A stretch of 64,000 bases of DNA. It comes from Palleronia salina (GTDB lineage Bacteria; Pseudomonadota; Alphaproteobacteria; Rhodobacterales; Rhodobacteraceae). A model generated the notes under the pieces. The model had not been told where the DNA came from. It did not search any database and saw nothing but the letters and a program-made list of their open reading frames with translations. A program made the position numbers and the translations under genes. The stretch's first letter is position 1. Each line of letters starts with the position of its first letter. Below are positions 49,583 to 57,367 of the stretch, piece by piece. Location: contig NZ_FQZA01000009.1 in the NCBI RefSeq assembly GCF_900141995.1, positions 62,001 through 126,000 of the forward strand. Reading direction: 5' to 3'.

Positions 49583-49604
49583 GAGTATTTCCGGACCAGT
49601 GATG
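49583..49604 (+). repeat. Intergenic repeat copy (direct)
   Basis: GAGTATTTCC followed by GGACCAGTGATG. Matches the copy at 52449 except for one base over the 22 shared positions. Confidence 0.65.
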
Positions 49605-49649: not shown

Positions 49650-49673
49650 CATCACTGGTCGGGAAATACTCAT
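49650..49673 (-). repeat. Intergenic repeat copy (inverted) beside the DNA ligase gene
   Basis: Read on the minus strand it is ATGAGTATTTCC followed by CGACCAGTGATG, differing from the copy at 52449 at two of 24 positions. It lies 40 bases past the ligase stop; with the 52449 copy it brackets the ligase/exonuclease pair as a long-range inverted repeat. Confidence 0.7.
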
Positions 49674-52368: not shown

Positions 52369-52448
52369 GGGGGTTGGTGTAGGGCGGGACGGGAGGCTGC
52401 CAAGTGAGCGCGCGGCTTCGGCGTCGCCGCACGCGGCGCTGTCGTCCC

Positions 52449-52472
52449 ATGAGTATTTTCGGACCAGTGATG
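52449..52472 (+). repeat. Intergenic repeat copy upstream of the exonuclease gene
   Basis: ATGAGTATTTTC followed by GGACCAGTGATG. It is 80 bases before the exonuclease start and is the outer right copy around the ligase/exonuclease pair. Confidence 0.7.
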
Positions 52473-52624
52473 GGCCTGGGTGACGTTCGAAGGTCTTCGG
52501 TGATGGGGCGCCTGCGTCGGTCGGGCCGACGCTTGATGGGGCGCGGACCGACCTCGGGTCGGGCGCCGCGAGGTGCCCAAAAAAGGGGCAGGTGTCCACC
52601 GGGCGAGCGCTTTCCCGGCCGATT

Positions 52625-52648
52625 GGTTGCGCTTGCAGACGCGCAACC
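52625..52648. promoter_or_regulatory. Perfect dyad over the predicted Anbu-cluster promoter
   Basis: GGTTGCGC (52625-52632) and GCGCAACC (52641-52648) form a perfect 8-bp inverted repeat with an 8-base spacer. It covers the candidate -35 and runs up to the -10 of the following promoter, so a bound regulator would exclude RNA polymerase. Confidence 0.5.
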
Positions 52649-52654
52649 TAGGAT
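52627..52654 (+). promoter_or_regulatory. Candidate promoter of the Anbu cluster
   Basis: TTGCGC (52627-52632) and TAGGAT (52649-52654) are 16 bases apart. The first ATG of the cluster follows 26 bases later. Both boxes are only moderate matches. Confidence 0.4.
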
Positions 52655-52680
52655 GTCGTTAACAAATGCCCGGGGGACCG

Positions 52681-54096
52681 ATGGCCGACAGCTTTAACGA
52701 AATGTACGAAAACGGCGCCGTGCGGGCGCCCTATGCCGGGCTCGAGGCCTGGGCGCGCGACATGCCCGACGACCTGCGCGGCATGAAGCAATCCGAGGCG
52801 GAGGCGCTGTTTCGGCGTATCGGCATCACCTTCGCCGTCTACGGCGAGGGGGGCAGCCCCGACCGGCTGATCCCGTTCGACATGTTCCCGCGCGTCTTCT
52901 CGGCGGCCGAGTGGGACGTGCTGGACCGCGGCATCAAGCAGCGGGCGCGGGCGCTGAATGCCTTCCTCGGCGACATGTACAACCGCGGCGAAATGGTGCG
53001 GGCCGGACGCATCCCGGGGCACCTGGTCTACCAGAACGATGCCTACGAGGTCGCGGTCGCGGGCTTCACCCCGCCCGCCGGCGTGTTCAGCCACATCGTG
53101 GGCATCGACCTGGTGCGCACCGGCCCGGACGAGTTCTTCGTGCTGGAGGACAATTGCCGCACGCCGTCGGGCGTCAGCTACATGCTGGAAAACCGCGAGA
53201 TCATGATGCGGATGTTCCCCACGCTGTTCCAGGAGAACCGCATCGCCCCGGTCGAGACCTACCCGGCGCAGCTGAAGCGGACCCTGCGCTCGGTCGCGCC
53301 GAAAAAATGCGAGGGCGATCCCTGCGTGGTGATCCTGACCCCCGGCAGTTTCAACTCGGCCTATTACGAGCACAGCTTCCTGGCCGACATGATGGGGGTC
53401 GAGCTGGTCGAGGGGCAGGACCTGTTCGTCGAGGGCGAATTCGTCTGGATGCGCACCACCGAGGGCCCCAAGCGCGTGGACGTGATCTATCGCCGCCTGG
53501 ACGACGCCTTCATCGACCCGCTGTGTTTCCGGCCCGACAGCATGCTGGGCATCCCGGGCCTGATGAACGTCTATCGCTCGGGCGGTGTCAGTATCTGCAG
53601 CGCACCGGGCGCGGGCGTGGCGGACGACAAGGCCGTCTATACCTACGTGCCGGACATGGTCCGCTTTTACCTGGGCGAGGAGCCGATCCTCAAGAACGTG
53701 CCGACGTGGCAATGCGCCAAGGCGGATGACTGCAAGTACGTGCTGGAAAACCTCGACGACCTGGTGGTGAAGGAGGTCCATGGCTCGGGCGGCTACGGAA
53801 TGCTGGTGGGGCCGAAATCCACCAAGTCCGAGATCGAGCTTTTCGCCACCAAGATCCGCGAGAACCCCGACAACTACATCGCCCAGCCGACGCTGAGCCT
53901 GTCGGCCTGTCCCACCTTCGTGGACGAGGGCGTCGCGCCGCGCCACGTGGACCTGAGGCCCTACTGCCTTGTCGGGCAGGAGGTGAACCTTGTGCCGGGC
54001 GGCCTGACGCGGGTCGCGTTGAAGGAAGGCTCGCTGGTGGTGAACTCGTCGCAGGGCGGCGGGGTCAAGGACACCTGGGTCATCGCGGGGAACTGA
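52681..54096 (+). CDS. Circularly permuted ATP-grasp protein of the Anbu cluster
   Basis: 471 residues. Family segments include FFVLEDNCRTPSGVSYMLENR, VILTPGSFNSAYYEHSFLA, RRLDDAFIDPLCFRPDSMLG and VVKEVHGSGGYGMLVGP (key residues: EDN, DDxxxDPL, KExxGxGGYGM), as in the DUF404/DUF407 permuted ATP-grasp proteins, thought to be peptide-forming ligases. It opens a four-gene set with alpha-E, transglutaminase and Anbu peptidase. ATG 52681 follows GGGGG; an ATG at 52666 is also in frame. The alpha-E gene starts four bases after the stop. Confidence 0.9.
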   Translation: MADSFNEMYENGAVRAPYAGLEAWARDMPDDLRGMKQSEAEALFRRIGITFAVYGEGGSPDRLIPFDMFPRVFSAAEWDVLDRGIKQRARALNAFLGDMYNRGEMVRAGRIPGHLVYQNDAYEVAVAGFTPPAGVFSHIVGIDLVRTGPDEFFVLEDNCRTPSGVSYMLENREIMMRMFPTLFQENRIAPVETYPAQLKRTLRSVAPKKCEGDPCVVILTPGSFNSAYYEHSFLADMMGVELVEGQDLFVEGEFVWMRTTEGPKRVDVIYRRLDDAFIDPLCFRPDSMLGIPGLMNVYRSGGVSICSAPGAGVADDKAVYTYVPDMVRFYLGEEPILKNVPTWQCAKADDCKYVLENLDDLVVKEVHGSGGYGMLVGPKSTKSEIELFATKIRENPDNYIAQPTLSLSACPTFVDEGVAPRHVDLRPYCLVGQEVNLVPGGLTRVALKEGSLVVNSSQGGGVKDTWVIAGN

Positions 54097-54100
54097 GATC

Positions 54101-55054
54101 ATGCTGAGCAGAACCGCGAACAACCTCTACTGGATCGCCCGCTATATCGAGCGGGCCGAAACCAACGCCCGACTGCTGGAAGTCGGCGCGCGCAACGCCA
54201 TGCTGCCCGACACCGCCGGGGGCAACCGAAACGAGTGGGAGTCGGTGCTTCTCGCCTCGGGCACCAAGGAAGCCTTCGATGCGAAATACGGCCAGGCGGT
54301 CGAGCGCAACGTCGAAACCCACCTGTTCTTCGACCGCGAGAACGCCTCATCGGTGGCCAGCTGCCTGTCGGCGGCGCGCGAGAACGGGCGCATCGTGCGC
54401 ACCGCGCTGACCACGCAGGTCTGGGAAGCGCTGAATGCTGCCCATGCCGAGCTGGGCGAAATGGCCCGGACCGAAAGATCGAACCTGTCGACCACCGACC
54501 TGATCGACTGGACCCTGCGCGCCTGTTCGCTGATCCGTGGCGCGGGCCTGGCCACGCAATTGCGCAACGACGGCTACGACTTCACCAATATCGGGCACCA
54601 TCTGGAGCGGGCTGACAGCACCGCGCGTATACTGGACGTGAAATACTACGTCCTGCTGCCCGATATCGGCTTCGTCGGCTCGGGGCTGGACAACTACCAG
54701 TGGCGCACGGTGCTGCGCGCCATGAACGCCACGCGCGCCTTCCACTGGGTCTATGGCGGCGACGTGACGGCCGGCAAGATCGTGGATTTCCTGGTGCTGA
54801 ACCGCCAGGCGCCCCGGTCGCTGATCAACGCGGCTGACGGGGTTCGCGTGCACCTGGACCGCCTGGCCCGCGCCTATGGGCGCGAGACCGATGCCCAGGC
54901 CCGGGCACGCGACCTGGTCGCCAGGCTCGAGGCCACCGACACCGAGGATATTTTCGACCGCGGCCTGCACCAGTTCCTGCGCGGCATCATCGCCGACGTG
55001 AACCGGCTGGGCGCCACGGTCCATGACGCCTACCTGAGCGGGGATGCACGATGA
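54101..55054 (+). CDS. Alpha-E domain protein
   Basis: 317 residues, all helical. The N-terminus MLSRTANNLYWIARYIERAE and the later FTNIGHHLERADSTARILDVKYY and RAFHWVYGGDV are the signature of the alpha-E (DUF403) domain (key residues: NLYWxARYxERAE and ERADxTARxLD). Alpha-E proteins occur almost only next to permuted ATP-grasp, transglutaminase and Anbu genes, and may help that ligase. It overlaps the transglutaminase start by four bases (ATGA). Confidence 0.92.
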   Translation: MLSRTANNLYWIARYIERAETNARLLEVGARNAMLPDTAGGNRNEWESVLLASGTKEAFDAKYGQAVERNVETHLFFDRENASSVASCLSAARENGRIVRTALTTQVWEALNAAHAELGEMARTERSNLSTTDLIDWTLRACSLIRGAGLATQLRNDGYDFTNIGHHLERADSTARILDVKYYVLLPDIGFVGSGLDNYQWRTVLRAMNATRAFHWVYGGDVTAGKIVDFLVLNRQAPRSLINAADGVRVHLDRLARAYGRETDAQARARDLVARLEATDTEDIFDRGLHQFLRGIIADVNRLGATVHDAYLSGDAR

Positions 55055-55875
55055 GACTCGAGATCAGCCACCGCACCCGGTATCGCTTCGACGCGCCGAA
55101 AGTCTCGCTGACGCAAAGCCTGCGCCTGTGGCCCACCGACTTCGAGGGCCAGACTGTCGAGGCCTGGTCCGTCGATATCGAGGGCCACACCGCGCAGCGC
55201 GGCGCGGCCTTCCGCGACGGCGCCGGCGACTGGATCGAGACGGTGTCCATGCGCCACGTCAGCGATGTGACCATCGCGGTCAGCGGCACGGTCGAGACCC
55301 GCGACCTGACCGGCTTCGTCAAAGGGCTGCGTGAGAAGGTGCCGCCGCTGGCCTATTTGCGGGCCTCGCCCATGACGCGGCTGAACGAGGACCTGCGCGA
55401 CCTGTCGGCCGGCGCGGTCGACGGGATCAGTAACGCGCTGGACCGGGCACATGCGCTGGCCCACGCGATCAGCGACGCGATCCCCTACACGCCCGGCGCG
55501 ACCCGTTCCGAGACGACGGCCGCCGAGGCGCTGGAGCTGGGGCAGGGTGTCTGCCAGGACCAGACTCACGCCCTGATCGCCGTGGCCCGCGCCGCCGGGA
55601 TGCCCGGGCGCTATGTCACCGGCTACCTTCACGCGTCGAGCGACGGCGCGGCCCACGAAGCGAGCCATGCCTGGGCCGAGATCTGGGTGGACGATATCGG
55701 CTGGGTCGGATTCGACGCGGCCAACCGGTGCTGCCCGGACGAGAAATACGTCCGAGTCGGCTCGGGGCTCGACTCGGTCGCTGCGGCACCCATCCGTGGC
55801 ATGGCCCTGGGCGGCGGGGACGAGCATCTGGACGTGGATGTGAAGGTGCAGGAGGCCGCGCAGCAACAGCAATGA
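55051..55875 (+). CDS. Transglutaminase-fold cysteine protease of the Anbu cluster
   Basis: 274 residues. An N-terminal beta domain (RLEISHRTRYRFD onward) precedes a papain-like transglutaminase core with C in GQGVCQDQTHALIA, H in EASHAWAEIWV and D in GFDAANRCC, the full catalytic triad. In this cluster the enzyme is proposed to cleave amide or peptide bonds made by the ATP-grasp ligase. No signal peptide is seen, so it acts in the cytoplasm. It overlaps the alpha-E gene; a 147-base gap precedes the Anbu gene. Confidence 0.92.
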   Translation: MRLEISHRTRYRFDAPKVSLTQSLRLWPTDFEGQTVEAWSVDIEGHTAQRGAAFRDGAGDWIETVSMRHVSDVTIAVSGTVETRDLTGFVKGLREKVPPLAYLRASPMTRLNEDLRDLSAGAVDGISNALDRAHALAHAISDAIPYTPGATRSETTAAEALELGQGVCQDQTHALIAVARAAGMPGRYVTGYLHASSDGAAHEASHAWAEIWVDDIGWVGFDAANRCCPDEKYVRVGSGLDSVAAAPIRGMALGGGDEHLDVDVKVQEAAQQQQ

Positions 55876-56022
55876 TGCGCGTTTGCGTCACTTGTCCGCA
55901 TTTCGCGTGGACCCGAGGGGCGTAACGCTGCGTTGCTGCTCGCACCGCGTCGCGTGACGGCGTATACACTTGCCACGCGGCCCCTCTGGGCGGGCCGCAA
56001 GCCGAAAACGAGCTTATTTACC

Positions 56023-56778
56023 ATGACATATTGCGTCGGCCTGCTTCTGAACGAAGGCATGGTCCTTCTGTCCGACACACGCACCAACGCGGGGATCGAC
56101 AACATCTCGACCTACCGCAAGATGTTCACTTTCGAGGAACCGGGCGAACGGGTCATCACCATCATGACCGCCGGGTCGCTGTCGACCACTCAGACCACGA
56201 TCGCGCGTCTGCAAGAGGCGATCGACGATCCCGATGCGACCTCGATCATGACGGCCGGCACGATGTTGCAGGTGGCTGAACTGGTGGGCGACACCTTGTC
56301 GACCGTCAGCGCGAATGTGGCCCACAAGCTGGGCGAGCGGGCGCAATCGGCCCGCGCGTCGATGATCGTGGCGGGACAACGCCGCGGGGGCGAGCCGCGC
56401 ATGTTCCTGATCTATGCTGAGGGCAACTTCATCGAGGCGACGGCCGACACCCCGTTCCTGCAGATCGGTGAGCACAAGTACGGGAAGCCGATTCTCGACC
56501 GGGTCGTGACGCCCGAGACGAGCCTGGGCGACGCGCAGAAGGCGGCCCTGCTGTCGATGGATTCCACCCTGCGGTCGAACCTGTCGGTGGGGATGCCCCT
56601 GGACCTGGTGGTGATCGAAACCGACAGCTGCCGCGTGAGCCGCCAGCGCCGGATCGAGGCCGACGACGAAGTTTACCAGAAGATGTCGGCGGACTGGTCC
56701 GTGGCGCTGCGTCACTCCTTCGCCAATATCGAGGTCGAAAGCAGCGGCGACGAGATCCCGGGATACTCGGCGGCCTGA
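56023..56778 (+). CDS. Anbu peptidase (proteasome-like ancestral beta subunit)
   Basis: 251 residues. After removal of Met the protein begins with Thr (TYCVGLLLNEG), the nucleophile of the Ntn-hydrolase fold; D17 (LLSDTRTNAG) and K32 (STYRKMF) complete the usual T1/D17/K32 set. VITIMTAGSLSTTQT and PFLQIGEHKYGKPILDR are typical of Anbu. The start is fixed by that Thr rule, which excludes the upstream in-frame ATG at 55933. Anbu proteins form proteasome-like rings or helices; their substrates remain unknown. No ATPase partner is adjacent. Confidence 0.94.
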   Translation: MTYCVGLLLNEGMVLLSDTRTNAGIDNISTYRKMFTFEEPGERVITIMTAGSLSTTQTTIARLQEAIDDPDATSIMTAGTMLQVAELVGDTLSTVSANVAHKLGERAQSARASMIVAGQRRGGEPRMFLIYAEGNFIEATADTPFLQIGEHKYGKPILDRVVTPETSLGDAQKAALLSMDSTLRSNLSVGMPLDLVVIETDSCRVSRQRRIEADDEVYQKMSADWSVALRHSFANIEVESSGDEIPGYSAA

Positions 56779-56803
56779 GCGCCGCGGGTCCGGCGCCGAC
56801 AGC

Positions 56804-57262
56804 TCAGCGCCGGAACAGTAGTCTCGACAAGAGGGATTCGCCTTTCGATGGCCGATGGCGGCCTGCCGCGTCGGCGAGGTAGCCGGCGGCCTTTGCGCGT
56901 CCGGCCTCGGCTGCCTGGGCCTCGCCCAGCCAGCTCCCGCCGCCGGTTTCGATCATTTGCCAGCCCGTCCGATCCTTGAGCAGCACGGCCGCGCCCGTGG
57001 CATCGCCGCGGGTGACTATCGTGAATGACGCGACCGGGCCCTCGGGCTCCAGGGCGATCTCGAAGGAAAAGCCGTCGCCGTCGAGGGTGCCCAAGCCGGG
57101 ATCGCGCCAGTCCGCGTCAGGGAAGATTTCCGAGATGACACGCCGCACGTCGGCGGCGGTGCCGATCACGGTCGGCTCGAAATCGTCCGGCAGGTGCGCG
57201 GCGCCCGATGGCCCGGTCGTCGTGGACGTATCGGCGGCGAATACGATGAGATCCCAGCTCAT
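56804..57262 (-). CDS. Uncharacterised 152-residue protein
   Basis: Starts MSWDLIVFAAD and contains strands with a central segment (FPDADWRDPGLGTLDGDGFSFEIAL) in which aromatic and acidic residues alternate, then TIVTRGDATGAAVLLKDRTGWQM (key: GWQMIET) and a basic tail. I do not recognise a family with certainty; similar short proteins starting MSWDLxV occur widely with unknown role. No signal or membrane helix. It converges with the Anbu gene and lies downstream of the hydrolase gene on the same strand. Confidence 0.6.
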   Translation of the reverse strand: MSWDLIVFAADTSTTTGPSGAAHLPDDFEPTVIGTAADVRRVISEIFPDADWRDPGLGTLDGDGFSFEIALEPEGPVASFTIVTRGDATGAAVLLKDRTGWQMIETGGGSWLGEAQAAEAGRAKAAGYLADAAGRHRPSKGESLLSRLLFRR

Positions 57263-57367
57263 GGCGGTGCAATCCTGGCTTTGGGCGTCCGGGCGCCCAT
57301 GAGCCGATCCTTCCTGCACGCGACACGTTTGTGCAATGACGCAGAAGGCCACGACGGGGCGGGGACC

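Follow-up and report, generated by a model that had tools for sequence, protein, structure and literature searches.

An ordinary Anbu-1 operon in Palleronia salina with a promoter dyad that is most likely coincidental

We analyzed a 64,000-nucleotide stretch (the window) of the 3.57-Mb genome of Palleronia salina (G000), which carries a four-gene cluster ending in Anbu, a relative of the proteasome. We found this cluster to be an ordinary Rhodobacteraceae Anbu-1 operon, a new member of a known operon type. Its first three genes (the trio) are probably expressed from a housekeeping-type promoter, and it is very probable that a perfect dyad lying over this promoter is a coincidence. Anbu most likely hydrolyzes the product of the ligase encoded by the first gene, or the carrier of that product. 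A first-pass annotation had read the dyad as the sign of tight control by a dimeric regulator. That claim had to be given up, as the dyad is not conserved upstream of orthologous clusters, and the dyad-bound regulator is a false lead that can now be set aside.

Genes of the operon and their known relatives

The four genes are adjacent and lie on the forward strand in the order ATP-grasp, alpha-E, transglutaminase-like and Anbu, which is the published order of the Anbu operon. The first encodes a circularly permuted ATP-grasp ligase of 471 amino acids (52681..54096, +; an alternative ATG at 52666 would give 476 amino acids) that matches PF14403 (CP_ATPgrasp_2, E = 1.9e-161) and, over nearly its full length, PDB entry 3n6x (E = 1.4e-195), whose name, putative glutathionylspermidine synthase, is annotation only. 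It is followed by an alpha-E protein of 317 amino acids (54101..55054, +; PF04168, Alpha-E, E = 8.5e-87) and a transglutaminase-like protein of 274 amino acids (55051..55875, +; PF01841, Transglut_core, E = 4.5e-24; PF08379, Bact_transglu_N, E = 1.7e-15; PDB 3isr, E = 2.7e-11), whose start overlaps the alpha-E stop as ATGA. These three genes are tightly packed, with 4 nucleotides (nt) between them or overlapping, while the gene for Anbu-1 peptidase (251 amino acids; 56023..56778, +) begins 147 nt further on, after a gap (55876..56022, +) whose length differs among relatives.

Anbu matched PF00227 (Proteasome, E = 1e-7) and aligned to the solved Anbu chains 5loy, 5nyj, 5nyf, 5nyw and 5lox (E = 7.6e-82 for 5loy). 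Its N-terminus reads (M)TYCVGLLLNEGMVLLSDTRTNAGIDNISTYRK, with no propeptide, such that removal of the Met would leave a mature N-terminal Thr1 and the triad T1/D17/K32. In the transglutaminase-like protein, Cys, His and Asp lie in GVCQDQ, SHAWAE and FDAANR, and all three align with 3isr. The Pfam matches, PDB alignments and adjacent open reading frames (ORFs) thus bear out the identity and Anbu order that the first-pass annotation had given the cluster, and both catalytic triads are intact, as it had stated. No AAA+ unfoldase is present within the cluster, whose four ORFs leave no space for another gene.

Sequence searches returned solved relatives for the ligase (3n6x), the transglutaminase-like protein (3isr and 6g49) and Anbu (the five chains above). 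They found none for alpha-E, the single component in this position. An AlphaFold2 model of alpha-E, built from a 34-row alignment, was all-helical and confident (pLDDT 88, pTM 0.88), but a Foldseek search of the model against the PDB gave no match at E ≤ 0.001, and no function could be read from the fold.

We then compared the cluster with described systems. The Anbu operon described for Yersinia bercovieri (PMC6376114) and in PMC5666114 shares with ours the four genes, their order, Thr1/Asp17/Lys32 and the lack of an AAA+ partner. Nothing substantial differs; the Palleronia operon has its 147-nt gap before Anbu and its coincidental dyad. Numbered from Thr1, the S1-pocket residues of the window Anbu are T20, Y30, T48, L52 and T55. 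They equal three of the five in Pseudomonas aeruginosa Anbu-1 (T20, F30, T48, L52, S55; PMC5666114) and resemble them at the remaining two, with Tyr for Phe at position 30 and Thr for Ser at position 55, and they are unlike the basic Anbu-2 set of the same source. An NtrC-controlled cluster of Burkholderia cenocepacia (PMC5491218) has the ligase, alpha-E and transglutaminase-like families in common with ours. That cluster adds a large transglutaminase-like protein, the available text does not contain the words Anbu, proteasome or peptidase, and its control by NtrC and sigma54 differs from the sigma70-like look of the promoter predicted here. The rlo operon of P. aeruginosa (PMC12239564), in which an ATP-grasp protein and an inactive transglutaminase accompany aspartic proteases, looks like a different system. 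PMC12096838 deals with an inactive transglutaminase that is unrelated. Our searches found no literature on Anbu in Palleronia.

Dependence of Anbu on the ligase and the role of the system

We next asked how Anbu and the ligase are distributed, using 150 genomes of the family (E ≤ 0.001) and 289 of the class; three genomes present in both sets (G000, G050 and G069) were removed to give 436 in all. Within the family, Anbu was found in 105 of 150 genomes and the ligase in 110, with all 105 among the 110; within the class, Anbu was found in 93 of 289 and the ligase in 124, again with all 93 among the 124. In the combined set, every Anbu genome had a ligase match (196/196), while 36 of the 232 ligase genomes had no Anbu. 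Fisher values were 2.8e-31 for the family and 4.5e-49 for the class, and these overstate independence because the genomes are related. Among genomes that lack Anbu, 16 of 36 (13/31 in the class, 3/5 in the family) carry a ligase that shares at least 58% identity with that of the window.

The ligase match was strong for 169 of the 196 Anbu genomes and distant or doubtful for 27. This latter group comprises 18 class genomes with a distant or partial Anbu match and 9 genomes whose best ligase reaches no more than 54% identity and lies away from Anbu. The 18 (of 93 class matches) showed 33-38% identity or consisted of a 96-residue piece, their best ligase was never nearby, and they may be other proteasome homologues. 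Strong class matches had the ligase within 15 kb in 63 of 75 cases; in the remaining 12, the ligase was at most 54% identical in 9 (31% and of a long fused type in G381) and at least 61% identical on another contig in 3. In the family, Anbu lay within 6 kb of the ligase in 102 of 105 genomes, although the nearby ligase of G013 is just 31% identical. One of the other three, G074, we discarded as a case of unlinked Anbu, since its Anbu, accompanied by a transglutaminase-like gene, sits at one contig end and its ligase near the other, which we read as a contig break. The other two, G061 and G127, are separations (2/105).

This one-way dependence is correlative; it favors Anbu acting on the product of the trio, downstream of the ligase. 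Given that every Anbu genome had a ligase match, including those in which the two lie far apart (G061 and G127), and that 36 of 232 ligase genomes lacked Anbu, we tentatively suggest that Anbu acts only downstream of the trio, as its obligate partner, and hydrolyzes nothing but the trio's product, which would also be useful without Anbu. From the protein families and the literature, we infer the biochemical steps as follows: the ATP-grasp protein most likely acts on a peptide or protein to form an amide bond, alpha-E would assist, the transglutaminase-like protein would transfer or trim, and Anbu would hydrolyze the trio's product or its carrier.

A more specific proposal is that the trio makes a peptide tag or small peptide and Anbu then takes it off or breaks it down. 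This ligase-then-peptidase logic, which the first-pass annotation put forward, had already been published as a hypothesis (Iyer 2009, as cited in PMC6376114 and PMC5666114). We regard it as a serious possibility that falls somewhat short of even odds. The conserved gene order, the one-way dependence described above and the resemblance of the ligase to 3n6x agree with it, as does the release of phosphate from ATP by the Y. bercovieri ATP-grasp homologue (PMC6376114). Against these stand the judgment of PMC5666114 that such a scheme is less likely and the report in PMC6376114 that the Y. bercovieri operon proteins showed no specific interaction and formed no detected complex. The literature also offers no named substrate or product: we found no named Anbu substrate in the available texts on Anbu operons and their ATP-grasp, alpha-E and transglutaminase-like families, and PMC8665760 states that Anbu has no known function. 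The first-pass statement that the substrate of the Anbu system is unknown thus agrees with PMC6376114, PMC5666114 and PMC8665760.

Less probable, and in our view unlikely, is that the four genes serve general degradation and nitrogen salvage, Anbu breaking down proteins when nitrogen is limiting instead of taking part in making and removing a tag. PMC5666114 reports inhibitor binding, favors degradation and cites induction of Anbu in nitrogen-limited Pseudomonas putida, and the B. cenocepacia genes I35_5080-83 (DUF404/DUF407, DUF403 and transglutaminase-like) depend on NtrC and sigma54 (PMC5491218). However, the Y. bercovieri Anbu cleaved none of the substrates tested, standard proteasome substrates included (PMC6376114), and a stand-alone protease would not be expected to be accompanied by a ligase as constantly as Anbu is.

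The promoter, its dyad and the linkage of Anbu to the trio

The dyad, GGTTGCGC-TTGCAGAC-GCGCAACC (52625..52648), is letter-perfect in its 8-8-8 symmetry (GGTTGCGC-N8-GCGCAACC), exactly as the first-pass annotation described it. Its left arm lies over a probable -35 box, TTGCGC (52627..52632, +), and its right arm in the spacer of the promoter, ahead of a probable -10 box, TAGGAT (52649..52654, +), 16 nt from TTGCGC. We examined the conservation of these elements in 80 ATP-grasp loci, the best 80 of 580 relatives chosen by ligase similarity, each with a complete 140 nt ahead of the point where the match begins. The two arms are not conserved together: the left arm was present upstream in L005, L007 and L011, the right arm in L005 and L084, and both arms only in L005 (1/80), which is Palleronia pelagia DSM 26893, a sister genome whose ATP-grasp protein is identical to that of the window. 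Within the genus, the exact dyad occurred in 2 of 14 genomes, the source genome and G155, and the other 12 were without it. G155 appears to be the genome of this close sister, as the dyad has the same contig position in it as was worked out for L005. Perfect dyads of any sequence were found in 5 of the 80 upstream regions, about the shuffled rate of 5%, and the four besides L005 differ in sequence and place.

The boxes behave differently. TTGCGC-N16-TAGGAT is kept in four of the 80 upstream regions (L005, L007, L011 and L016) and occurred in none of 100 shuffled sets; at the positions of the right arm these four read GCGCAACC, AACGCCCC, TCCCGGTC and GATCCGCT, respectively. L007, L011 and L016 have thus retained the boxes and lost the right arm, indicating that the boxes persist and the symmetry does not. 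A looser pattern, TTGnnn-16-TA(A/G)nnT, was present in 10 of 80 regions, compared to a shuffle mean of 0.53. The shuffles disregard relatedness, whereas the contrast between boxes and spacer inside the same sequences is independent of them.

As a class, dyads of this kind are no more numerous than chance would give. The window contains 66 perfect dyads with 8-bp arms and spacers of 0-20 (mean of 67.5 in 10 shuffles) and four with a spacer of exactly 8 (mean of 2.5 in 40 shuffles). Locally such a dyad is less frequent, arising in 16% of shuffled versions of the 291-nt intergenic region. The genome holds a single exact copy of the dyad, no site with one mismatch and six with two, five of which fall within long ORFs by a mechanical test; near-matches numbered 83, compared to 247 for a reversed-pattern control. 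With no second site below two mismatches and five of the six two-mismatch sites in long ORFs, we rejected a regulon sharing the dyad.

The dyad is most likely a chance coincidence, not a control switch. The first three genes form a tight unit that is probably transcribed from the housekeeping-type promoter TTGCGC-16-TAGGAT, and the dyad would be coincidental in the two sister genomes, its left half coinciding with the conserved -35 region and its right half falling in unconstrained spacer. Several observations weigh against this account. The promoter is predicted from conservation, and a strict consensus scan of 52390-57000 returned no promoter-like sites, so that the proposed boxes fail it. 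When the 59-nt promoter stretch was shuffled, such a dyad appeared in just 1.6% of cases; a dyad of this local rarity would be expected somewhere among the presumably many promoters of the window. Between the two sister genomes, which differ by 0.7-3.9% across the genes compared, the dyad carries no substitutions, and its 24 nt are too short for this to mean much. Finally, one of the six two-mismatch sites lies outside long ORFs. That the dyad is a lineage-specific operator, at which a dimeric repressor bound between the -35 and -10 boxes silences the trio until a signal releases it, is very improbable and was rejected on conservation: its symmetry across the promoter, its local rarity and its identity in two sister genomes speak for it, and against it stand its absence from 12 of 14 Palleronia genomes, the absence of both arms from 79 of 80 related upstream regions, the loss of the right arm where the boxes stay, the lack of a second good site genome-wide, and the shuffled-rate frequency of unrelated perfect dyads.

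A two-block Gibbs search across the 80 upstream regions converged on CCCTTTC and TGcTTAACT, with a spacer of 16 in 42 of 80. This motif was not adopted as a family-wide promoter; it fits the Gemmobacter and Pseudotabrizicola side and lies at a different place in L005, and we relied on the direct test of the boxes. As separate observations, an extended -10-like TGnTTAA occurred upstream of 23 of the 80 ligase loci (shuffle mean 1.55), and CTTTC or CTTCC preceded TGnTTA at promoter spacing in 19 (none in shuffles).

All 80 loci, which were chosen on the ATP-grasp gene, also carried the alpha-E and transglutaminase-like genes. Anbu lay downstream of the trio in 69 of them within the DNA examined, either directly or past an inserted stretch, and was missing from 11, among them L067, a short contig ending just past the third gene. 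ORFs on the opposite strand separate the trio from Anbu in L008, and one lies in the gap of L035. In G061, of the genus Palleronia, Anbu sits beside abhydrolase, SCP2, TPR and helicase genes, as are found downstream here, and the ligase is on another contig. The trio is intact in G127, G043 and G076, and in G026 the contig stops inside alpha-E. Given the separation of Anbu from the trio in G061 and G127 and the opposite-strand ORFs in L008, the gene arrangement suggests that some relatives can transcribe Anbu independently of the trio's promoter. Together with the 147-nt gap, these cases weaken the idea of one promoter for all four genes.

In two loci, the transglutaminase-like gene and Anbu are separated by an ORF of 221-254 amino acids that has no Pfam hit (L048:8281-8946 and L064:8239-9003), and L049, L072 and L082 have a similar gap. 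We rejected this ORF as a fifth operon gene, as 6 of the 150 genomes of the family contained relatives of it and, judging from contig positions, only G122 had one next to Anbu.

Dispersed elements and surrounding DNA

A dispersed element, GAGTATTTTCGGACCAGTGATG, occurs in the window at 49583-49604 (+), 49650-49671 (-) and 52451-52472 (+) with at most 3 mismatches (none in shuffles). Its 17-nt core has 32 matches in the genome with at most 2 mismatches (control, none), and some copies form inverted pairs. Directly past the third copy, 52482-52513 is a hot spot of divergence between the sister genomes that holds 10 of the 11 substitutions and the sole gap of the 291-nt intergenic region. Downstream of Anbu, 56779-57367 differs from the sister genome by about 12%, and an ORF at 56804-57262 (-), with no Pfam hit, has a match in just one of the 80 loci (L005). 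In L063 (Gemmobacter tilapiae), a 35-nt perfect inverted repeat with 16-nt arms and a 3-nt loop lies 121 to 87 nt upstream of the ligase match and is possibly the terminator of the preceding gene.

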